Assembly (NCBI RefSeq): GCF_025698545.1
Contig: NC_068569.1
Span: 6,076,001 to 6,140,000 of the forward strand
Source: Gossypium raimondii
Taxonomy: Eukaryota; Streptophyta; Magnoliopsida; Malvales; Malvaceae
DNA length: 64,000 nt
Direction: 5' to 3'
Shown here: positions 12,958 through 51,999 of the stretch, piece after piece
How positions within the stretch are numbered: position 1 is the first letter of the stretch
How the letters are laid out: every line of letters starts with the position of its first letter
Notes under the pieces: model-generated
The model's database searches: none
Told to the model about the DNA's origin: nothing
The model's input: the letters and a program-made list of their open reading frames with translations, nothing else
Made by a program: the position numbers and the translations under genes

Positions 12958-15900
12958 TTCGTAATCTGAAGCTGCTTTTTTGTTTTTGGAACTTCATGCT
13001 TTGGATCTTTCTGTTTTGTCGTAAAGAATCTTAATGAAAAAGTAGATTTGTAATTAAGTTTGGCAAGATCACAAGAAACCCTTTTTTATTGGACCTGTAT
13101 ATTGCTGAAAATTCCAATGATTCAATATTTTGCTATCATTCGTTTGGATTCTGTGGCCATATTTTTACCTGTTTCAAATATGGCAAAATTTCTATTTCTA
13201 ATAGTGCCTGACTATAATCTCCATTAGTTGCTTTTTTTTGTCATGGTCTGTTTGGCTTCTGGAGAAAATTTAGTGAGAAAAAAAACAATGCTAGAAACTT
13301 ACTTATTTCCCCCAATAGGACGAGATTTATCGGAAATTAATGAACTATCTGCATTTATTTTCTTTTGTCATCTCCTTTGAATATCAACAGCCGAAAGCAT
13401 GGTGTGGGGTTTATGGTTTAACTTTTGGCATTATTTGCCTAATGGAGTGTCTGTATTAAGAGTTTAATGATGATTGTGTATTTTACACTTTTGCAGGTTA
13501 CTAATTTGGGAGGAATATTATTATGAATCTACACTGTCAGGACTTCAGAACCCTGAATTGCGAGAGTGGGGCGAATGCTGTGGTTCAGACACTTCCTCTC
13601 AGCTTGGTTGCCAACCATGGGACAAAGTTGGTTTGCTGATTAGCAAAATGATGAATAATCGCATTGTTATAGTCGGCCAAGGGTACACGTCTCTCCATTT
13701 TCCAGTTTGCAGATTAATATATTATATTAAAGTCAATTTCCTTTTATGCAATTATGTGAGGCACTTTTTACTGTTGTTTTTCAGGTTAGTCGGCCGAGCT
13801 GCATTTACCGGCAATCATCAGTGGATTCTTGCAAACAGTTACATGACAGATTCTCAACCCCCAGAGGTACTACAAATTTAGCCTCTGAAAAATGGCCACA
13901 ACAGAAAGTTCTATCTTGATTAAGAAGAAATGAGGATTGTTGCCTTATGTGACGACTGCATGATTCTGCATGTACTAGTTTAATGAACATCCTAGTTAAC
14001 ATATGCACCAAATATTAAACCTGACAAACTTTGCATAACTTAAAGTTTTGTGGATGCTTCTAGGTTCTAAATGAGTTGCATCTCCAGTTTTCTGCCGGCA
14101 TGCAGGTTGATAACTTCTGCTCTTGCTTGTTATTTGCTTATTATCTCCTTGCTTCATTATTGAACTTTTTTCCGTTGCAGACCGTTGCAGTTATTCCTGT
14201 TTTTCCTCATGGTGTTCTTCAGCTTGGGTCTTCCACAACTGTACGTACTAATCTATGTTTGATTTTATTAAGCCAAAAATATGTTAGCCGCCTTTAAGTT
14301 TAAGTAATTTTACCTGCCCTTCCAGATTATCGAGAATATGGGATTTGTGAACGACATAAAGAGCTTAATTCTGTGTTTCGGATGCATCCCTGGATCTCTT
14401 TTCTCCGACAGTTGTGGAACAAGTGAATGTGTTGAGAATAATGGGATCCCTATTTCTTTGGAAAAGCCCGTTTCAATGGATTCAGCTGGAATTTATTGGT
14501 CAACGAATTCCTCGATTTTAGTTACTGAAGGCTGCAACCGACAGAGCAATTCATCTCAGGCTTCGGGGATTGTTGGTGAATCATCCTTCCCCACAAAACA
14601 GATTCAAGAAAACCAGACTTTGTGGCTGAACCCTCATGTTTCTTTTTGCAACTCGCAGTCCGAGTTCAATTGTCAGCCTGTAATTGGTCAATCAGCTGCC
14701 AGTTATAGCAACTTAAAATCAATGGAGAAACTGATTGTGTCGGATACTGGTCTGCAAAATCATGTTACCAACAGCACTAGTACATCAAATAGTCAAAATA
14801 AACCAAAACCAATCCCGGACATTGTCCCAAGCTTGGAGAAAGTAGAAGATGTTACTTTATCCATCCCGGCCAATCAATTATCTAGCATTGCCATGTTTTC
14901 AGGAGTTTCTAATCAGGGGCATGATTCTGAGGATTCTAAGTGTAGTCGAGCTGATGTGGTTTCGAACAAAGAAAGTAAGGATAATGGTTTGTTTCAAGCA
15001 CCTAATATTTCATTGCTTCCCTTTGATGATGGCTTAACTTTTAGCGAGCAACTCCCAATTAAAAGTTTCAGTACAAGATCACCGAATTCTAAGTACGAAG
15101 ATGCATGTATCAAGCCGCCATCAGGGGATGACTTGTTTGATGTGTTGGGGGCTGATTTAAAGAGTAAACTACTCGATGGGAAATTGAATAATGCGCTTTC
15201 TCAGGGACCAGATTCTAAGATGCAAAATTTAGAAAAGGATACTTGGGTGTTTAGGGATATGCACAATTTGTATTCTGATACTTTTACAGCTAACGAAGGG
15301 ATAACAGACCGGGGCACTCATTCTTCGGTGGTTACGGATCATCTTTTGGATGCTGTGGTTTCTAGTGCACAATCCACTGCAAGGCAGATATTAGATGATG
15401 ATGAGTCGTGCAGGACAACATTGACTAATTTTAGTAACTCAGTGCAATTCAGTTCTCCAACCTTTGGCCGGGTTAATATTTTCAATCAAGTGGAAAGGGA
15501 GTTACATGGCGGCCTTCCTAAGTCGTCGTTAAAAGGGGGAACTCCTCCATCCGGTTCTTTTCGATCTGGCTGTAGCAAGGATGATGCTGGGACTTGTTCT
15601 CAAACTACTTCTCTTTATGGGTCTCAAATCAGTTCATTGGTTGAGCTGGGTCATACTACAAGGCACAATAGCAGTCTCTCGACCGCATATTCAAAGAGGA
15701 ATGATGAAACAAGCAAACCGAATCGCAAAAGGCTAAAACCTGGAGAAAACCCTAGACCGAGGCCCAAAGATCGGCAGATGATACAAGATCGAGTGAAAGA
15801 GTTGAGAGAAATTGTACCGAATGGAGCCAAAGTAGTGCATCTTTAAACTATTGACATACCTACATCCTTCTTTAATATGCTTTAGTGTAGTAAACAATTT

Positions 15901-23334: not shown

Positions 23335-26300
23335 ATGGAGTCTCGAATGGATCATTACGAGATCATGGAACAGATCGGCCGTGGTGCTTTCGGCGCTGCC
23401 ATTCTCGTTCACCACAAATCCGAGAATAAGAAGTAATTTTCTAATTTCTCACTTTCTGGATTTTTAATAATGCGTTAAATTTTGTTTTTCTATAATTTCC
23501 AGGTATGTACTGAAGAAGATCAGATTGGCGCGGCAAACGGAGCGTTGCAGGAGATCGGCACATCAAGAAGTTAGTTTAATTTGTTTAACTAATTCAATCT
23601 GTAATGTTAGAAAGTTTACGTTTTCCAGTTTATAACTTTGTTTGACTTTTGTGGAATGTAGATGGCACTTATATCACGAGTCCAGCATCCTTACATTGTT
23701 GAATTTAAGGAAGCTTGGGTTGAGAAAGTAAGATACGATCATAGGATACTACTTTTTTTGTTAGGAATCTCGAGTCAAAATCTACTTTTACTTAATAGTT
23801 TTTTTAATTTGTGACTGGCCTTTTTATGTTGATTTTGAGTTTTTTTACTGTAATGCAGGGTTGCTATGTTTGCATTGTTACTGGATACTGTGAAGGTGGA
23901 GATATGTGAGTTTCCTAGCTTGTATGGTGAACTTTGGTTCAGAGCTTTTTGTTCTTCAACATCAGCAATTTTTGAAATGTGTCAATATTGTTCCTTTTGT
24001 TGTTCCTTTTTAACAGTGCTGAATTGATGAAAAAATCTAATGGGGTCTATTTCCCCGAGGAGGTAATCTAATGCCTTGTTGATTTTACAAAGTTATTTTC
24101 TTCGTGAGTTATGACTTGCAAGTTAACACCCATGACTGTAAACGTTGTGCAGAAACTCTGCAAGTGGTTTGCGCAGCTTCTTCTGGCTGTTGAATATCTG
24201 CATTCAAATTTTGTTTTGCATCGCGACCTAAAGGTATTGTTTTAAATTTAGACTAGCCTTTCTGGTATCATAATGATGTATGGGCTGACTTTGGCACTAT
24301 ATTTTTCAGTGTTCCAATATTTTTCTTACCAAAGATCAAGATGTCCGCCTTGGTGAGTTCGTCTTTTCCCTTTCCTTATTGTTTTTTACAGGTTCCTTCT
24401 CCCACATTTCATCCTTGAGCTATATTAGATATCCTACATAATTTCATATTGTTATCAACAATTTTATCCCTGGTCTGTACTGGTTTAGGGGATTTTGGAC
24501 TTGCCAAGACTCTGAAGGCAGATGATTTGGCTTCCTCGGTATGTACCATGTAATAAAATAAATTTTTTATATGCTTTTTGTTTTTAATCTTTTTCATCCA
24601 TCTCCAAGGATGGAACAGATTTTTGGGTTCATTTTTCTATATTAAGCATTTAAGCTTATGCTGCTAAGCCTAAAAGTAGAGCTTTGTTAATACTTGTTTT
24701 CTGTTTGCTGATACCTCAATTTTCCCATACGTTCTATAGCAAAAATCTTGCATCGAACCATGGTACTAATAAACTATCTAATTCATAAAATGCTCCAATT
24801 GTTGAGGAACTGATAGAATCGGAAATTAATATAATTCGGTGTGCCACAGCTTGCAAGATGATCATTATAATCAGAACAACCAAATGAACATAGATAATCA
24901 CTTTTTTCTTCAAGGGAAGAATTAAAATGAAAAAAAATTGATTATTCTTTTTAGCTTATATTACAATTTAAGGGGAGGAGATGTCAATATTAAGTCTCAA
25001 ACTTTGGATCTTAAGGTGCTAACTCAGAGTTTCAATCACTTGCTTTTTAGAGTTATTAAAAAATAAAAAATTACAAAAAAATCAATTGTTAATTCTGGGA
25101 TTGATGTTTCAGTTGCTGAAAAATTGAGAATACATGCATGTATGCAACTTCCAGTTACCAAGCTTATATCTGACGGTTGGATAGATGTACTTTTGAATGG
25201 CAAGTATTATTATTATTATTGATAGTGGGTTGGGGAGGAATGTCTAGGGTTTGATATCACTACATCGATAGCTTAGATGACATCACCTTGCATTAGTAGT
25301 TTAACATAAAAAAAAGAAGCTAAAAACTGCAAAAGGATATGCCATATTAGTAAGTGTACGAAGATGAACAGTATCTTTAGAGTTAGATTTGTACTCCTCA
25401 ACCCCCAATACCTGATACTCGGAACGTTTGGACAAAAGCCAGTGGGAAGGAGGGGGTTGAAACTTGCATCTTCAACCTCCAATTGTGGGGGGCTTGACAA
25501 TGACCACTAGTCTACAACCAGGCGTACTTAAGCCCTTTTATTGACGACCAACCATACTTGGACCATTTTCAGTGAAGACAAAATTTATATACCTTTGATA
25601 TCATTTTTTTTCATTTGTTTATTTATTTTTCCTTATATAAGAATATGCTAATTATTTGTAGTTTCAGTGCAATTTAATAGTTGTTTTATACATGGCTCAG
25701 GTAGTTGGAACTCCCTATTACATGTGTCCTGAACTGCTCGCAGATATTCCTTATGGTTTCAAGTCTGATATTTGGTCTCTGGGTATGTCTTTTCCTAATT
25801 ATGTGTTTGACATGGGTAAATCTTTTTCTTTTTTAACCGCTTCTTGTTGAACAGGGTGCTGTATGTATGAGATGGCTGCTCATCGCCCTGCTTTTAAAGC
25901 ATTTGTAAGAGTTCTCACATTTCTTTTGGTCGAATCTGTTTCTTGTATTCTGGAATGGGTTTACATTAACCCTTCTTTTAGGTGTAATTATATCCATTTT
26001 GGCAAGTAGCGTGTATTTCATTTGATATTATATTAAAACAAGAAAACTCTAAGAGTTCTAGTTTCTCCCTTTTATCTTGTTGTGGAATATTCACCATTAA
26101 CAAATGTAGCAAAACTTTGTATCTGTTGTTTATCTTAATTAGGAACAAGCAGTAATCCTGTTCTAGGTTCATAACAGTTTCCAGGAATTAGTCAAAAAAA
26201 AAAAACAGTTTTCATGAATTCAATGCTCGTCTCTTTTAAACAGTGCTTTAAAGTGCTTATGGTTGTCTGCTTGACTGGTTTAAAGTAATGTCCTTCTCTC

Positions 26301-29300
26301 ATTTGAGAGGTTTTCTGCAACTGCTAATTTTATGCTTCCACTAGCCACGTAAATGATGCAATTTTAATTTGAATAACTTTTATCAAACTTCTTGTTCTAG
26401 GACATGGCAGGGTTGATAAGCAAGATAAATCGTTCCTCTATTGGCCCTTTGCCTTCTTGTTACTCTCCATCCTTGTAAGTCTTAATGTGCATTTTAGAGC
26501 TCACCATTGTTTGTGTGCATGATGACCTGAGTATTCCGCATAATTTTTTATGCTCTACTAATGCTCTTATATCCTTGTCGGTTTTTCTTTTGCTTTTAAT
26601 TATTCTTTCACATACCATGTTTGGACAAAGTTAAGGTCTCTAAATCCTTAGTACATGATAGTTAATTTGTTTAATGTTACACACACAGGAAAACACTTAT
26701 CAAGGGCATGCTAAGAAAGAATCCAGAGCACCGACCAAGTGTAAGAGTTTTTTGTTTAAAGTCTGAGAATACTTTTTCAAAAAAAAAAAAAAATGGTCTA
26801 AGAATTCTACATCTGCAAGACTTCGAAGTAACAGTTTGAATTTCAATCTTGATTAGGCATCAGAGCTTTTGAAGCACCCTTATTTGCAGCCATATGTTGA
26901 TCAGTATCGTTCATCCTTCAGCTATCCTTCAACAAATTGCTCCTTGGATAAGCATATTTCCACTGGTCGTGAATCTCGTGATAATAGGAAAAATATGGCC
27001 GAGAGTCAGAGCAGTAATAGCTCATGCAGTGATAAAGATAGTTTACTTTCAAGTGACAGAAACACTGCCACAATGGTTTCAAATAGCAATAGTAAGGCCA
27101 CTGACAGAGATTCAATTTCTAATGATGAAGAAGGAAGCACTGAGCAGCACCTGCCAAGTAAAGAAGAGAATGGCCCCATTGTTTCCACAGGCAAACTTGA
27201 TGAAAAAGGAATGACGAAACCTTCTTGTATGGAACAGGGATCTAACGTTCAATCAAAGCAACCAAAAACCATCAGAAATATAATGATGGCTTTGAAAGAA
27301 GGGAAAGTAAGAGAAAGTGGTTCCCCAATGAGAGGCAGCCGTACAAAATCTGCAGGTGGATTGACTCAAAGAAATAATGTAGAGGCATCACCCAAAGTTC
27401 TCAAACCCCCTGCTCCCAGTCCGAGTTCAAAGTCTAATGCAGATACACCAACTGTTGCTTCAACAAAATTGCCATTAGATTCTGCAAAAAGGATACCAGG
27501 ATCACACCATTTGAAGCACCAGGTATGGCTTCCAGTAAGTGTTCCTATTTAAATCTATTATGTTATCAATATCCTCGCTTATTTTGCAAGATTCTGCTAT
27601 CCAGTTTCCTTTAATTGAATCCTCCCCAAAGGCCAAACCTAGACATGAAGGGATTCCTCAGCCTGCGCCTGGGACGCATGTTGCTGAAGATGGACTACCT
27701 TCTAAGCCTAGGCAAACAACTCCTCCTTCCAATGTTGCAAGAAGATCACCTATTACTGGAAGAATAAAACATGCTGAAAGTGATGTTTCAAATGGGGCAA
27801 GTAACGGACCAAAGTTAGGATATAGTGAGATAAACCAGGAGTGTGAGGTTATTCCTTGTCAAATGCTTAATGGTCGCATTGCAAATGCTTCTAGGGGTGT
27901 AAAACCAGAGGCTGAGATAGCTCTAATGGCAGGTACCAAGGGGGCGCAAACAGATAGCAACAATTCTGCCTCATCTTCAATCTCAATTCAAGCATTTGAG
28001 GTATGTGATGATGCGACAGCCCCTTTCATCGACATGACAGAACAGGTGCATGATCACGAGACAATCACCGACATGAAGAGCTTGGAATCATTTCCACCAC
28101 ACAGCTCACCTGCTCTGAAATCAGACAAGCCTGAAGTTCTTTTGAGAGAAAGCTTTGGGTATGACCATAAATCAATCATGTCTTCAACTGAAGAGTCTGG
28201 TCCAACCAAGGATCTTTTTCATTTTAATTCAGTTGATGCAAAAGTGAGTCTGAATGCCCCTGTGGACCTTCCAGGCGCGGTTTCAGAAGAAATGTATGTT
28301 CATAAAGATGATTCCACTTCAAGCTGGACAATTAGCAGGCATGATGCTTCATTAATTCAGACAAGTTATATCAACGATGCTCCTTTAAGCGGAGTAAATA
28401 GAAGGGATGGTCTCCTTATAAGCGACACAAGTAGTAGGGGTAACACCTCAATAAGGAGGCCGAGTAGCGGTGATGATCCCCCTATAAGCATATTAAGCAG
28501 CTGGAATGATACCCCGATAAGCAGGTCAAGTAGCAGGGATACCCCTGTAAGGGGGCCAACTATTGAAGAAGATTTCCCCATTATCAGGTCAAGTATTAAG
28601 GACGAAACTGTGTCAAACGGACCTAGTAGCAGACTTGATATGATGCACCATTCAAATCTTTCTTCTGCATCCAGCAGCGATGACAAGTTCACTGTGATGG
28701 AACTTGTCTCATCAGTTGCAGGAAATATGCCTTGCAGTTCCCAACCAATTTCTTCTACCCAAAAGAACACACAGCCAGAGAAAAGAACAAATGAGCACAA
28801 CCCAACAATTGAAAAACCAGCAGTGACCTCTCCTCCGGTTTTCGATGATGTTATACATGTTATAAGGCATAGTAGCTTCCGTGTTGGCAGTGAGCAACCG
28901 GGGATGGAAAAAGCGGAACCGGGTGTGGATGTTGGGAATTTCATAAATGTAGTGAAAGATGAATTGAACATGAGAAACATGACTAGTCCAGTGACCCTTA
29001 AGTCACCAAGTTCAAAATCAATTGTTTCAGGTTATGACGGTGTTAAGGAAGAAGATATTAGGAACTCCAATTCCTCATCTCTAGAATCTGGTTCAACAGA
29101 GGTGGTGAAGGAAGAGGAGACAGCAGAAAAAGAAACATTGGATGTCAAGTGTGATAGGCAAAGGGCAGAGGCACTTGAAGGACTTCTAGAATTGTCTGCA
29201 GAGTTACTGCAAAATAAAAGACTGGAAGAGCTGTCAGTTGTTTTGAAGCCATTTGGGAAAGACAAGGTGTCCCCAAGGGAGACAGCCATATGGTTGGCCA

Positions 29301-29347
29301 AGAGTATGAAAGGGATGATGATTGAGGACTGTCGACGGAGTTCATGA
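23335..29347 (+). CDS. NIMA-related Ser/Thr kinase, plant NEK6/IBO1 type
   Basis: Fourteen exons give 1,054 residues: 23335-23432, 23503-23569, 23662-23727, 23859-23905, 24017-24062, 24153-24233, 24310-24352, 24489-24538, 25701-25782, 25855-25904, 26401-26474, 26689-26740, 26857-27522, 27605-29347. All are GT-AG with consistent phase. The kinase domain spans about 8-262: Gly loop GRGAFG (15-20), catalytic-lysine region YVLKKIRL (Lys37), HRDLKCSN (131-138), DFGLA (151-155), GTPYYMCPE (169-177). All catalytic residues are present. A long Ser-rich tail has an 11-residue degenerate repeat (733-808) and a conserved-looking C-terminus ([20 protein letters not shown]). Arabidopsis NEK6 (956 residues) phosphorylates tubulin and limits ectopic epidermal outgrowth and microtubule stability; the same role is inferred. 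For exon 14 the acceptor before FPLIESSPK was chosen because it keeps phase; one 34 bp upstream does not. Intron 8 is the longest (1,162 bp). Confidence 0.93.
28379..28606 (+). repeat. 33-bp degenerate tandem repeat coding an 11-residue unit in the NEK tail
   Basis: Seven in-frame units follow a loose pattern (T/P)[83 protein letters not shown] (one unit is a residue short). They fall in the disordered, Ser-rich part of the protein. The frame is preserved despite divergence, so length change was tolerated while coding was kept. Confidence 0.7.
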
Positions 29348-31572: not shown

Positions 31573-32076
31573 TCAAACGCATATGCGTTTACCATTTACA
31601 ATGCTACACTTAGGACTCGGCCCTGGCCTTGGCTTTGGGCTGCTATCCTTTTCTGCACCACTCAAACCCCACCCCCACTTTGTTTTAACACTCAGACGCA
31701 TATACCATTAATATCTCACTATCAAAATACTCAATCTAGCATTTAAATGAATCACTTATTCAAATATAATCTTTACCCACAACTTACAGATTGAATATAT
31801 TTAGATACACGAAAACCAAATACTTAATATAAAAAGATTACCATAAGCAATATATTAAAGATGCAATTTTAAGGGAATTCACTAACAAAATATCACAAAA
31901 CACAAGGATGAAGATGCAATTTTAAAAAGATAAAAATTTTGTATAAATTAATTAGTAAGCAATTTGATCTTACTTAGGGCAACTAGTGGTCGAGCTGAGG
32001 CAGGTGCAGTGAAAATAGCCAGACTGAAAAGCAAGAGAATGCAAGCTATAAGAAATGCCTTCTTTTTGGGCATCAT
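31573..32076 (-). CDS. Small secreted peptide candidate, two exons, 60-residue precursor
   Basis: Exon 1 (31974-32076) codes MMPKKKAFLIACILLLFSLA and on to PASARPLVAL: a lysine-rich start, a hydrophobic core of about 17 residues and a likely cleavage after Ala-Ser-Ala (residue 28). It ends at a GTAAG donor in phase 1. Exon 2 (31573-31652) joins after a GTGCAG acceptor in the same phase and gives KKDSSPKPRPGPSPKC, then a short tail ending KRICV and a stop. The inferred mature peptide has about 32 residues, is basic and Pro-rich, and has two Cys nine residues apart. A TATA box lies 48 bp upstream of the start. The acceptor has a G-rich rather than pyrimidine-rich lead, so the join is less sure than exon 1; unspliced, the frame stops after 42 residues. 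I do not recognise the family. Plant peptides built this way act outside the cell as signals or defence peptides, but no role is shown here. Confidence 0.55.
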
Positions 32077-32123
32077 TCATTTCCTTCCTCTAGTTGTGTA
32101 AATAAAACATTCTTCCCTCCCCA

Positions 32124-32130
32124 TTTTATA
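32124..32130 (-). promoter_or_regulatory. TATA box of the small secreted-peptide gene
   Basis: On the minus strand CCTATAAAATGGGG lies 48 bp upstream of the first in-frame ATG, placing transcription start near 32,095-32,100 and leaving a leader of about 20 nt. One out-of-frame ATG (32078-32080) lies 2-4 nt before the start in a moderate context and could lower initiation. Confidence 0.5.
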
Positions 32131-37229: not shown

Positions 37230-37862
37230 ATGTCGGCCAAGGACTGCGGCCACCATGATGACGAGGAACAGCTAGCCAAGCGCATAACGGTAGCCATTGT
37301 TGGGGTATTCGTCGTTGTGGGCATAATTATTTTCCTCGTATGGGCCATTCTCCACCCCGACAAGCCTCGCTTCATCCTCCAAGATGTCACCATCTACGCT
37401 TTCAACCTCACAGCTCCGAACATGCTCACTTCCAACATGCAAATCACATTATCTTCCCGAAACCCCAACGACAGGATCGGCATTTACTACCAAAAACTCG
37501 ACATCTTCGCATCTTACCATAACCAGCAGATAACTTTACCCACACTGGTACCCAGAACATACCAGGGGCATCTCGACGTCACTGTTTGGTCCCCATTTTT
37601 GTACGGAAATGCAGTGCCAGTGGCTCCGTTTCTGGAGGAAGGGTTGAGCCAGGACATGAATACCGGCATGGTGTTGCTGAACATCAAGGTTTACGGGCAA
37701 CTGAAATGGAAGGTGGGGACTTGGATTTCGGGTCGGTATCAAATCAACGCCAATTGTCCGGCTTATATTTCCTTTACGGATCGAACTAAGGCGATCCAAG
37801 TTGGTTCGGCTATGAAGTATCAACTTGTGCAAACCTGCACTGTTGACGTTTCTCTTAACTAA
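37230..37862 (+). CDS. NDR1/HIN1-like (NHL) protein, LEA_2 domain
   Basis: A single exon of 210 residues. A short cytosolic start with Lys/Arg before the membrane (residues 1-18) is followed by one transmembrane segment (about 19-41, ITVAIVGVFVVVGIIIFLVW). The extracellular LEA_2 beta-domain (about 50-205) has the family's RNPN motif (77-80) and the typical GNAVPVAPF and LNIKVYGQLKWKVG stretches. Length and order match NHL proteins of 200-230 residues. Family members sit in the plasma membrane, several rise in pathogen response or senescence, and some resemble NDR1 in linking wall and membrane. Which member this is, and how it is regulated, cannot be read here. Its codons are much GC-richer than the surroundings, as expected of a functional intronless gene. 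The start is the first ATG of the open frame. Confidence 0.92.
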   Translation: MSAKDCGHHDDEEQLAKRITVAIVGVFVVVGIIIFLVWAILHPDKPRFILQDVTIYAFNLTAPNMLTSNMQITLSSRNPNDRIGIYYQKLDIFASYHNQQITLPTLVPRTYQGHLDVTVWSPFLYGNAVPVAPFLEEGLSQDMNTGMVLLNIKVYGQLKWKVGTWISGRYQINANCPAYISFTDRTKAIQVGSAMKYQLVQTCTVDVSLN

Positions 37863-44893: not shown

Positions 44894-47800
44894 TGTAATA
44901 TCCCGAAAATTACTATAGTAAGAAAATAGGTATACTTGATATAGTAAAATAAGGAAATAAAATGTTAAAAAACAAAATGTAATATCCCGAAAATTACTAC
45001 AGTAAGAAAGTAGGTATACTTGATATAGTAAAATAAGGAAATAAAGTGACAAAAAGCAAAATTTTGATTTATGTCAACATTGGAAGTATATTATGACATA
45101 TTAATGCAAGAAAGGACTAATTCGCAAAAGTGAGAAAAGTTTTGTTGCCCAATAGTAAATATTTAAAATTTGAGGGGTTAAAGTGTAAATTTGAGGGGTT
45201 AAAGCAAAATTTTGATTTATGTCAACATTGGGAAGTATATTATGACATATTAATGCAAGAAAGGATTAATTGTGCAAATATTTTAAGGGTGGAATGATCT
45301 AGAATCTAAGGAAAATGGATGAATTAGGACCAAATTGAATAAGTGAAGAATTATGAGGGACTAAATCGTAATTTTACCAAATTAAGTGATGACTCAAGGA
45401 TGGAATTTTAAAAGATCATGAAGGGAAAAATAGTCAATTAGACGGAGAGAGAAGTCTAGAAGGCAATGATGATGTTGGAGATATTTTAGATAAATAAATA
45501 AATATTAGTTTATAATATTTGATTTGATTTTTTTAATGATATTTTATTATTTTATTTTGTATATATATATATGTGGAAAGAAAGAAAAAAAGCCACCATC
45601 CCACCATTTTTCCCATGCACCAATGTGAGAAGAAGAGAGAAAGATAACAATGAGACTATGGGGAGCTAAAATATCAAGTTAGATTCAAGAAATAGAAGCT
45701 AGAGGAGAGAGAAAATCAAGTTAAAGTTTGAAACCAATAGAATAAGGTAAGAACATCAAGATTTAAATATATTTTTAAGTTTGATATTATTGAAAAGCAT
45801 GGAAATGATGTTATAGTAGAGTTTTCTTATATCAGGTCTTATGTTCTTGATATATTAGTGAAGGAAAAAAAGTGAAAGTGATGGGAAATATTATAGAGAA
45901 AGGGAATAAGGGAGTTATAAACTTAGTAATCAACATCTTGCACTAAAACAGTTTTGGACAACAGTAGTAGGTTAACTTTGAAAAATCACCATAAATTGTG
46001 GAAATTGAATTAGAGGATGAAAAAAATATGGAATTAAATCTTATTTAGTATAGTTTCTCATAGAAGAAATGGTGTAAATAATGGAATTGTAAATCATGAG
46101 ATATAATAAATTTTGTGAAACAAGGTGATCAGAATGATTTCGGGTTCCCCTGTTCTGACTTTGGAAAATCATAAAAAATTGGACAAAAATAATTAGGGGC
46201 TTAAATTTATATTTTTAAATCCTTAATGAATATATTTTCAATAGAAACAAACGGTAACATCATCCGAATCTCGTACGATGAGATAATTAATTTTTAGTGA
46301 AGAAGAGTCGAAACTGTAAGACAACAGAACAGAGATGACTTTAAAGAATAAACTGTACTTATTGGCTGGACCAAAAATTCTGAAAATTTGATGGTAATAA
46401 TATATGTGAATCTAGTTTCAGATAAAATTAAAGTATCTCAATTCTAAGTTCCGTAGCTTAAGATATAATTAATTTAGTGACCATGACTCAAGTGAACAAC
46501 TTGTTATGAGTAAACAAGTAAATAGTGGTATTATGTATATACCAAGGATGTGGAATAGAGAGGAGGAGGAGGAAAACTATATGTGAATATTCAACTAATA
46601 TGAGATTATTTTAAAATAGCTAATTTACATGTTTTAAGTTCAGGGACTAAATTGAACAAATGTGAAACTTTAAGGGTAAATTTTGTAAAATGTCAAAAAG
46701 TGACCAAATTGCATGAAATGAATTGTTTTATTATTTAAATTAATAAATTGAATGAAATATTAATTTAGATCAAGATTGTGTGAAAATTTGAGGAAAATAG
46801 AAAATTACCAAAATGTCCCTAAATTTTAGTATTTCTACAATTTAGCCTGGTAAGTTCGTATTAGACCTGTCCATGGGCCGGGCGGCCCGGCCCGGCCCGA
46901 TGGCCCGCCCGAAATATGGGAGGGTTTGGGTAAAAATATAGGCCCAAATATGGGCTTGGGCAAAAACGAGGCCTGTTTAGAAAGCGGGCAGACCTCGAAC
47001 AAGATTTTTTGGCCGGGCCTGCCCGCCCGCCCGAAAATATATTAAATATATATTTTTATTTTTAAAATATACTAGTTTTAGTTTTATTTTAAGTTACAAA
47101 ATTTTAGATTTTGTTACAACAATTAATACAATTAACAATTAATAATTTGATGTAATTTGATAATTTTACTAATAATTAATACAATTAACAATTAATAATT
47201 TTACTAACAAAATGTTAGTAACAATTAATAATTAATAATTTGATATAATTTGATAATTTTAGTAACAATTAATACAATTAATAATTTTACTAACAAAATG
47301 TTAGATTTTACAAAATGTTGATTGGTACAAAAATATATAATTTGATACAATTTTAATAATAATTAATTTTGATAACAATTAATTTTAATAACAATTAGTT
47401 TTAATTTTAATAAAATATAATTTTAATTTTAATTAAAAACGGGCGGGCTCGGGTTCCATATTTTTCAGTGGTAGGGCTGGGCAAAATCTCGAGCCCATAT
47501 TTGGGGCCGGGCTGGGCCCGGGCCTAGGAAGCGGGCTGAAATTTTTTGTTGGGCCCGGCCCGGCCCATGGACACCTCTAGTTCGTATGAACTATATTCTG
47601 TATAATTTTAATTAAAGTGAATATTATTTGGTGATGAATATTATATAAATATGTGTTTTATTATTGGAATTTAATTATTATTGGTAATATGTATAATTAT
47701 TAGATTGCATTGAAATGATTATCGAAAGCTCAATTGAGTTGGGGGCTTGTTGGAGATATATCACACTATCCATTGATTCTATCGGTAATCTTGGATGATT

Positions 47801-50575: not shown

Positions 50576-51994
50576 CTATATACATAACTGTGGTTTTAAC
50601 CCTAATCTTTGGTTCCTCAAATCATATTCCACGTAATAATTCTGCATCTGAAAACTCCCCAATACTATAGCTGGTCCGCTATGCCCCACTACAGCCTTTC
50701 CTCCACCGACATCGCCATCTGTCACCACCGTCAAGCACGCCACCCCTTCTCCAACCACCGCGAAATAATTCTCCAGCGGCAGTGCTATCTCAGCGCCGCC
50801 TTTAAAATGCAACCTCAACTCGGGTAACTCCACCGGTTTCCCCATATCCTTCACATCGAAACAAGGCCTCAACCCTGTTAATACCTCAACATCACGAGCT
50901 CTACTGTAGTTCTTAACTTGCTTCACAAATTCTACAGCTAGGGGCTCGAATATCTCACGAGCCATGAACGTGAAAGTCGAACCAGAATCCACGATGGTGC
51001 CACCATTACCATTATTTCCAGGCGAGAGAAACTTGCGGGGAACCTTAACGCGGCGCCCACCTACTGTTATCTTCCTTAAACCAACGTAGTAATAAACTTG
51101 GAAAGCTTCTTTGCCCCGGACAATGGGGTTTTTAATAAACGGTGTGTAGATTAAACCATTGGTTTTCCGATCCATATCGGAGGTGCTATCAAGTATCAAA
51201 GTGCTGCTACTAGGAGAGTCATCGAAGCGGCGAGAGATGAGACAGTAAGAGAATTTGTGTAGCTTAAGTTGAGTGGGCAAAGAAGGAAGGCCACGGCCGA
51301 AGCCGGCAATGCCGGCGGGTTGTCGGGAAGAGAAAATGGAGCATCCGACTAAGAAATTGGACACAGTTCTATCACCGAGATTCAGGGTTTCCGATAATGC
51401 AACCCCGGCAGTGGTTCCCGGGCCATAGAGGAGGAAGTAAGGGGGACATGCTTGAGTGCAGTTTTGGGGGGTGAAGCTGTTTCGGCATTCATCGCATTGG
51501 GTTTTGTTGGTGTGGTGGACCCATGAACACTTGGGGTTTCGGCAGCCGACGAGTCTAGAAGATGAAGATAGTTTAGGGATGAAGGAGGGGATAGTAACGT
51601 TTTGGTCGGAGGAAGGAGAAAAGGAGCAGTTTTTGCAGACATAGCGATGGGTACAAGGGAACCAAACGAAGTCACTGCCGGTGTCCATGACGAAAGGGAG
51701 GATTTGAGGTGGAGTGCCAAAGCTGAGAGAAATGGAGTAGCCTCCATAGCTGTGGGAAAAGAGTGGGGTGGTGGTGGTGGCGTCGCTGGTGGCAGTGGCG
51801 GTGATTTGGGGGTTTTTGAGGTGATGGGCTCTGGCTAAAGAGGAAGAGGCAAGGTAGCTGAGGATCTGGTACGGATCTCGAGATGGGTCATTGGCATCGA
51901 AATGTGTGAGCGTTAGTGGTAAATGCAAAGCGAAGGCGATGGCGGGGAAAATACAGAGCAAAAGAGATACGAAGCAGAGGACACGAGAAGACAT
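50576..51994 (-). CDS. Nepenthesin-type (A1B) aspartic protease, At4g16563-like
   Basis: A single exon of 472 residues, the usual length for intronless plant nepenthesin-like proteases. There is a signal peptide at about 1-22 (MSSRVLCFVSLLLCIFPAIA). A propeptide follows to about 80. The first catalytic Asp lies in DTGSDFVWFPC (Asp104), with the Cys-rich nepenthesin insertion after it (CKNCSF... CRNPKCSW... CDEC... CTQACPPY, about 120-185). GIAGFGRGLPSLPTQL is at about 228-243. The second catalytic Asp lies in IVDSGSTFTF (Asp336), and the C-terminal lobe ends GLKPQLCI. Both active-site motifs are intact, so an active endopeptidase is expected in the wall or vacuole. The family holds roles in defence, pollen and senescence; the specific role is unknown. 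TATATTATTA on the minus strand near 52,085-52,095 is a possible TATA box. Confidence 0.93.
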   Translation of the reverse strand: MSSRVLCFVSLLLCIFPAIAFALHLPLTLTHFDANDPSRDPYQILSYLASSSLARAHHLKNPQITATATSDATTTTPLFSHSYGGYSISLSFGTPPQILPFVMDTGSDFVWFPCTHRYVCKNCSFSPSSDQNVTIPSFIPKLSSSSRLVGCRNPKCSWVHHTNKTQCDECRNSFTPQNCTQACPPYFLLYGPGTTAGVALSETLNLGDRTVSNFLVGCSIFSSRQPAGIAGFGRGLPSLPTQLKLHKFSYCLISRRFDDSPSSSTLILDSTSDMDRKTNGLIYTPFIKNPIVRGKEAFQVYYYVGLRKITVGGRRVKVPRKFLSPGNNGNGGTIVDSGSTFTFMAREIFEPLAVEFVKQVKNYSRARDVEVLTGLRPCFDVKDMGKPVELPELRLHFKGGAEIALPLENYFAVVGEGVACLTVVTDGDVGGGKAVVGHSGPAIVLGSFQMQNYYVEYDLRNQRLGLKPQLCI

Positions 51995-51999
51995 GGTTT

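Follow-up and report, generated by a model that had tools for sequence, protein, structure and literature searches.

A putative two-exon gene for a secreted, Pro-rich peptide with a C-terminal cysteine pair in Gossypium raimondii, and its paralogues

Plant peptide signals of about this size are regularly missed by annotation. The locus examined here lies on the reverse strand of a 64,000-nucleotide stretch of Gossypium raimondii DNA (the window; contig NC_068569.1, positions 6,076,001 to 6,140,000, hereafter contig C5), and it raises the question of whether two short coding segments form a gene for such a signal and, if so, what kind of peptide this gene specifies.

Gene structure and paralogues

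The initial annotation had proposed a two-exon gene at this locus (hereafter W), and its coordinates and phases were found to be exact (Table 1); the stop codon ends at 31573. When the exons are joined in phase 1, the product is MMPKKKAFLIACILLLFSLAIFTAPASARPLVALKKDSSPKPRPGPSPKCSIVNGKRICV, a precursor of 60 residues in which exon 1 contributes residues 29-34 of the mature part; with the intron retained, the frame stops after 42 residues, without both C-terminal Cys residues.

Table 1. Positions of the window gene, its neighbours and the truncated copies of paralogue B
Feature	Position	Strand	Remarks
TATA box TATAAAA	32124..32130	-	begins at 32130; 54 nt upstream of the main ATG
Main ATG	32076	-	start of the 60-residue precursor
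Out-of-frame upstream ATG	32078..32080	-	four nucleotides ahead of the main start
Coding exon 1, 103 nt	31974..32076	-	residues 1-34 and first base of codon 35
Predicted signal peptide, residues 1-28	31993..32076	-	predicted from hydropathy and from small residues at -3/-1
Intron, 321 nt, phase 1, GTAAG...GTGCAG	31653..31973	-	same position and phase in both paralogues
Coding exon 2, 80 nt including stop	31573..31652	-	KKDSSPKPRPGPSPKCSIVNGKRICV after the join
C-x8-C tail C50-C59, C-S-I-V-N-G-K-R-I-C	31579..31608	-	presumed single disulfide loop
Protein-kinase gene (exons; outer limits approximate)	23662..29347	+	Pkinase match 25662-25850; relatives on C7, C9 and C13
LEA_2 gene	37230..37862	+	PF03168; relatives next to the kinase copies of C7 and C9
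Truncated copy of B (L028)	C7:30546k
Truncated copy of B (L029)	C11:54532k
Truncated copy of B (L030)	C1:16627k
Truncated copy of B (L031)	C8:30292k
Truncated copy of B (L032)	C2:33628k

A tblastn search of the W precursor against its own genome (750.8 Mb) returned 14 matches (E up to 10) at eight or more places, W included. With the paralogues and a composed exon-2 sequence as queries, 16, 12 and 8 matches were listed, all of them at these eight places; as tblastn scored the best candidates only, the number of places is a lower bound. Intact genes were found at two of these eight places, 16 kb apart on contig C7, and are referred to as A (near C7:37870.8k) and B (near C7:37855.1k). The first coding exon is 103 nt long in each, the phase-1 intron site is that of W, with introns of 156 nt in A and 204 nt in B, and both genes encode products of 62 residues that align to W without internal gaps, W ending two residues earlier. 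Because exon-1 length, the phase-1 intron site and gap-free products are shared in this way, the splice join of W is supported; the two-exon model thus held up, and W is presumably spliced as proposed.

Identical residues occupy 29 of 60 positions across the three genes, and the identity among the precursors is moderate, at 57-63%. The invariant positions of exon 2 comprise K-K, four alternate Pro residues (P-x-P-x-P-x-P) and the letters of C-S-x-V-x-G-K-R-x-C. The intron bodies, by contrast with these exons, are nearly unalignable: on the donor side, 17 nt are common to W and A, a stretch of 42 nt is 71% identical between W and B, and no match at E 0.01 links A and B. Downstream, a flank of 122 nt is common to A and B only. 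TATAAAA stands before the ATG of the paralogues as well, at 43 nt in A and 75 nt in B.

Could the open frame of W have arisen by chance? As a rough control, 392 CAG sites on both strands of the window open a phase-1 tail of 15-45 residues, and a C-x8-C end combined with at least five Pro residues was found in one of these 392 tails, that of W itself, with a filter that was picked after W had been seen. The recurrence of the exons, of the intron position and phase and of TATAAAA in two paralogues argues that W is more than a product of chance.

Additional ATGs precede the start codon. In W, the out-of-frame ATG at -4 has a purine at -3 and opens an overlapping frame of 36 codons in the unspliced and 38 codons in the spliced form; it may act as a brake on translation. 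In the unspliced form this frame ends at a TAA within the splice donor GTAAG. A further ATG of W, at -34, probably precedes the transcription start, judging from the position of the TATA box. Paralogue B has ATGs at -50 and -17, between TATA box and start, and paralogue A has one at -30.

Neighbouring genes, duplication and selection

W lies between a protein-kinase gene, which we take to be NEK-like, and a LEA_2 gene, presumably of the NDR1/HIN1-like type. On both C5 and C7, the order is kinase on the forward strand, peptide gene or genes on the reverse strand and LEA_2 on the forward strand, with identical orientation. The shared neighbours, in the same order and orientation, therefore indicate that W and the C7 paralogues descend from a block duplication. 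A third block, on C9, carries kinase and LEA_2 relatives in matching order; no peptide gene was detected in its continuous sequence C9:35076000-35111500 (L017-L020), where the best match had an E value of 0.21, and the block probably lost the peptide gene after the duplication. The kinase relative on C13 is the closest of the kinase relatives (82% identical); contig C13 gave no LEA_2 match, and no peptide gene was found in the 20 kb beside this kinase relative.

Among the neighbours, synonymous divergence from the C5 copy was 0.33 (C7) and 0.29 (C9) for the kinase and 0.70 (C9) for LEA_2; for W compared with A or B, it lay between 0.53 and 0.64. These values suggest that the peptide, kinase and LEA_2 pairs are of the same order of age, as would be expected after a large-scale duplication. 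Ka/Ks ratios (Nei-Gojobori, 60 codons) were 0.45 for W-A, 0.49 for W-B and 0.74 for A-B, and the observed ratio was reached in 3.4%, 8.4% and 34.8% of 500 neutral simulations, respectively, placing one of the three pairs below the 5% level. The genes are short, and the ratios lean towards constraint, which gives a weak indication of purifying selection on the three peptide genes.

These figures bear on the hypothesis that W is a decaying or non-functional duplicate, still open by chance and by virtue of its short length. The weak signal of selection, the C9 block without a copy and the two residues by which W is shorter than its paralogues would fit such a history. However, the two exons with their splice sites, the start codon, the TATA box and the Cys pair are all intact, and the synonymous divergence from the paralogues corresponds to a time long enough for stops or frameshifts to have built up; we thus regard decay as quite improbable.

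The predicted peptide and its possible role

Signal peptides were judged by simple hydropathy together with the -3/-1 small-residue pattern. Residues 1-28 of W have a basic start, a hydrophobic core (mean Kyte-Doolittle value 3.08 over 15 residues from residue 8) and A-S-A before R29, and paralogue B has T-S-A instead of A-S-A before the Arg. The signal peptide with an Ala-Ser-Ala end that had been proposed for W fits this core and cleavage pattern, and ASAR or TSAR is kept in the paralogues, so that secretion appears plausible for all three products. Similarly, the Pro/Lys-rich mature part with two Cys residues was borne out by the retention of the C-x8-C tail in A and B. The predicted mature peptides comprise 32 residues in W and 34 in A and B, with a net charge (K/R minus D/E) of +7, +9 and +9 and with 6, 4 and 5 Pro residues in W, A and B, respectively. 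The two Cys residues stand nine positions apart counted C to C, with 8 residues between, and the common ending is C-S-x-V-x-G-K-R-[IV]-C, in which C50, S51, V53, G55, K56, R57 and C59 are identical in all three genes; from the first Cys onward, the tails read C-S-I-V-N, C-S-R-V-R and C-S-K-V-H across the three.

Pfam profiles (E up to 10) gave no family for the W peptide or for a provisional version of paralogue A that had one residue too many, and no PDB sequence matched the W peptide at E up to 10. In the open-access papers searched, six short stretches of the peptides were not found, two others ('GKRVCV' among them) occurred only in two papers on insect defence peptides, and no item combined SCREW, phytocytokine and Gossypium. 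The earlier suggestion that W may be undescribed is consistent with these Pfam, PDB and literature searches.

With gene structure, paralogy, shared neighbours and a conserved Cys pair with S-x-V-x-G-K-R in place, we incline to the view that W is a genuine nuclear gene for a secreted Pro-rich peptide, acting most likely as an apoplastic signal through a leucine-rich-repeat receptor kinase. W would be transcribed and spliced, and its 60-residue precursor would enter the secretory pathway, where residues 1-28 would be removed after A-S-A to leave a 32-residue cationic Pro-rich peptide. The last eleven residues, C-S-I-V-N-G-K-R-I-C-V, may then close into one disulfide loop, and the looped Pro-rich C-terminal part would be the ligand, acting in the apoplast. 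Its receptor could be a leucine-rich-repeat receptor kinase that works together with a SERK co-receptor, as in the published case of HSL3 and the CTNIP/SCREW peptides (PMC9191895).

The main rival to a signalling role is an antimicrobial one, which the composition of the peptide would also suit: cationic, Pro-rich and with a C-terminal disulfide loop, it would act on microbes directly instead of serving as a ligand. The strong positive charge fits this role equally well, the Pro content agrees with it, and one short disulfide loop would suffice for it. Moderate sequence drift is common in antimicrobial peptides, and the drift among W, A and B is in keeping with this. However, the best-conserved stretch is the specific C-S-x-V-x-G-K-R-x-C and not general charge, and no Pfam profile was matched; we consider a direct antimicrobial action rather unlikely.

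Among known signals, CTNIP/SCREW peptides are proposed as the nearest likeness to W, judged by the published description of that family: in both, two Cys residues lie close to the C-terminal end of a small precursor that is Pro-rich and secreted (as predicted for W). CTNIP4 has 70 amino acids and a signal peptide, its residues 48-70 (the C-terminal 23) suffice for activity, and its C58 and C68 are required for binding to the receptor, HSL3, and for BAK1 recruitment (PMC9191895). Several Arabidopsis CTNIPs rank among the genes most strongly induced by flg22 within 30 min (PMC4191550). The precursors of W, A and B (60, 62 and 62 amino acids) are likewise short, though shorter than CTNIP4; they share with the family a predicted signal peptide, a Pro-rich stretch, a C-terminal Cys pair, a first Cys that opens C-[ST]-x-[IV] and the ease with which annotation misses them. 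Two Cys residues lie inside the C-terminal ~23 residues in all three genes, and the literal C-T-N-I-P is absent from all three. In CTNIP4 the Cys spacing is 10 counted C to C and 9 counted as residues between, each one more than in W, A and B; the filter for 'confident' CTNIPs takes a Cys pair at 9-11 amino acid spacing, and the passage concerned (PMC9191895) does not say how this spacing is counted. Because C-T-N-I-P is lacking and the spacing is borderline, the three genes are not filed as CTNIP/SCREW here.

An alternative hypothesis is that W, though divergent, does belong to CTNIP/SCREW and that the plant's HSL3/NUT is its receptor. The anatomy is the same, C-[S]-x-[V] echoes C-T-N-I with Ser for Thr and Val for Ile, and nine positions from C to C would fall within the published 9-11 (PMC9191895). 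In addition, CTNIPs are described from Amborella, eudicots and non-grass monocots, that is, from most angiosperms and not from grasses, and more than 40% of the members were unannotated in that study (PMC9191895). Against this, the literal C-T-N-I-P is missing in three of three genes, and the spacing falls short if the filter counts the residues between (8). The genomic context can also be compared. Arabidopsis CTNIPs lie next to a glyoxalase II gene, a position that is no published criterion of the family, whereas the neighbours of W are a kinase and a LEA_2 gene. Four loci with a glyoxalase II C-terminal domain were found in the genome, and in the 10 kb read at three of the four, no frame combined C-T-N-I-P with a second Cys. 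A frame in L050 (near 5100, forward strand) has C-N-I-P and a Cys 9 further on, and it was not counted as a CTNIP because it lacks a Pro-rich stretch and an in-frame hydrophobic leader. On this evidence, membership of CTNIP/SCREW is possible but doubtful.

Other families of small secreted precursors with a Pro-rich C-terminal part are PIP/PIPL, IDA/IDL, CLE and CEP; these are not known to have a conserved C-terminal Cys pair. Their C-terminal signatures were not seen in W, A or B. They have been grouped with CTNIP by a core PSGP sequence (PMC11331138). RALF, snakin/GASA and defensins resemble W in being secreted, cationic and disulfide-dependent. They and the other plant peptides rich in Cys contain at least four Cys residues (four conserved ones in RALF), in contrast to the two in the mature parts of W, A and B, and Pfam gave no match.

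Taken together, W is probably a peptide signal of the CTNIP kind by its anatomy, of unproven family and not categorically new. Tentatively, the three genes might instead constitute an undescribed phytocytokine family apart from CTNIP/SCREW, with a Pro-rich stem and a closed C-S-x-V-x-G-K-R-[IV]-C loop as the ligand and with an orphan receptor kinase, in which the tandem expansion on C7 and the capture of one copy by a transposon would reflect quick turnover. In either case, three paralogues with a defined conserved tail provide a motif with which relatives can be sought and a ligand (the 32-mer or the C-terminal half of it) that can be tested directly. If W is a true divergent CTNIP, the ligand diversity for HSL3 would be wider; if not, W would be the ligand of an unknown receptor.

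Putative captured fragments of B and other features of the window

The remaining five of the eight places hold copies of B that are cut short at the start, with TATA box, ATG and initial codons missing. These truncated copies sit in a repeated element of ~6.5-8.5 kb that is roughly 94-96% identical in the main alignments and carries the B sequence in two pieces (~350 and ~750 bp), the stretch between them missing. In three of the five element copies, those with both ends covered, related inverted ends were found that resemble GTTTGGTT-(C/T)-(G/A)-(C/T)-TGTAATG, though weakly so in the C7 copy, and a TTA or TAA of 3 bp was seen by eye at both sides. The C1 copy contains a DDE_Tnp_4 piece and a Myb/SANT-like domain. 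The element thus looks like a PIF/Harbinger-type transposon that captured a fragment of a peptide gene from its host and spread it; Pack-TYPE elements of plants are reported to capture genes. In the C2 copy (L015/L032), TAT (Tyr) stands where the first of the two tail Cys residues would be encoded, as expected for a decaying fragment.

Within the window, a further tblastn match at 47481-47546 (E 2e-4, KNFSPLPRPGPSP...) was rejected, as it is G/C-rich with repeated GGGCC-type words and has no gene-like context; words of this type recur over 47481-47580 on the reverse strand and produce a Pro-rich but spurious likeness to the peptide tail. Scans for Rfam families and tRNAs in the window found nothing. 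Two more genes of the window, at 14308-15846 and 50576-51997, encode an LHW-type bHLH protein (PF23176) and a TAXi-type aspartyl protease, respectively.
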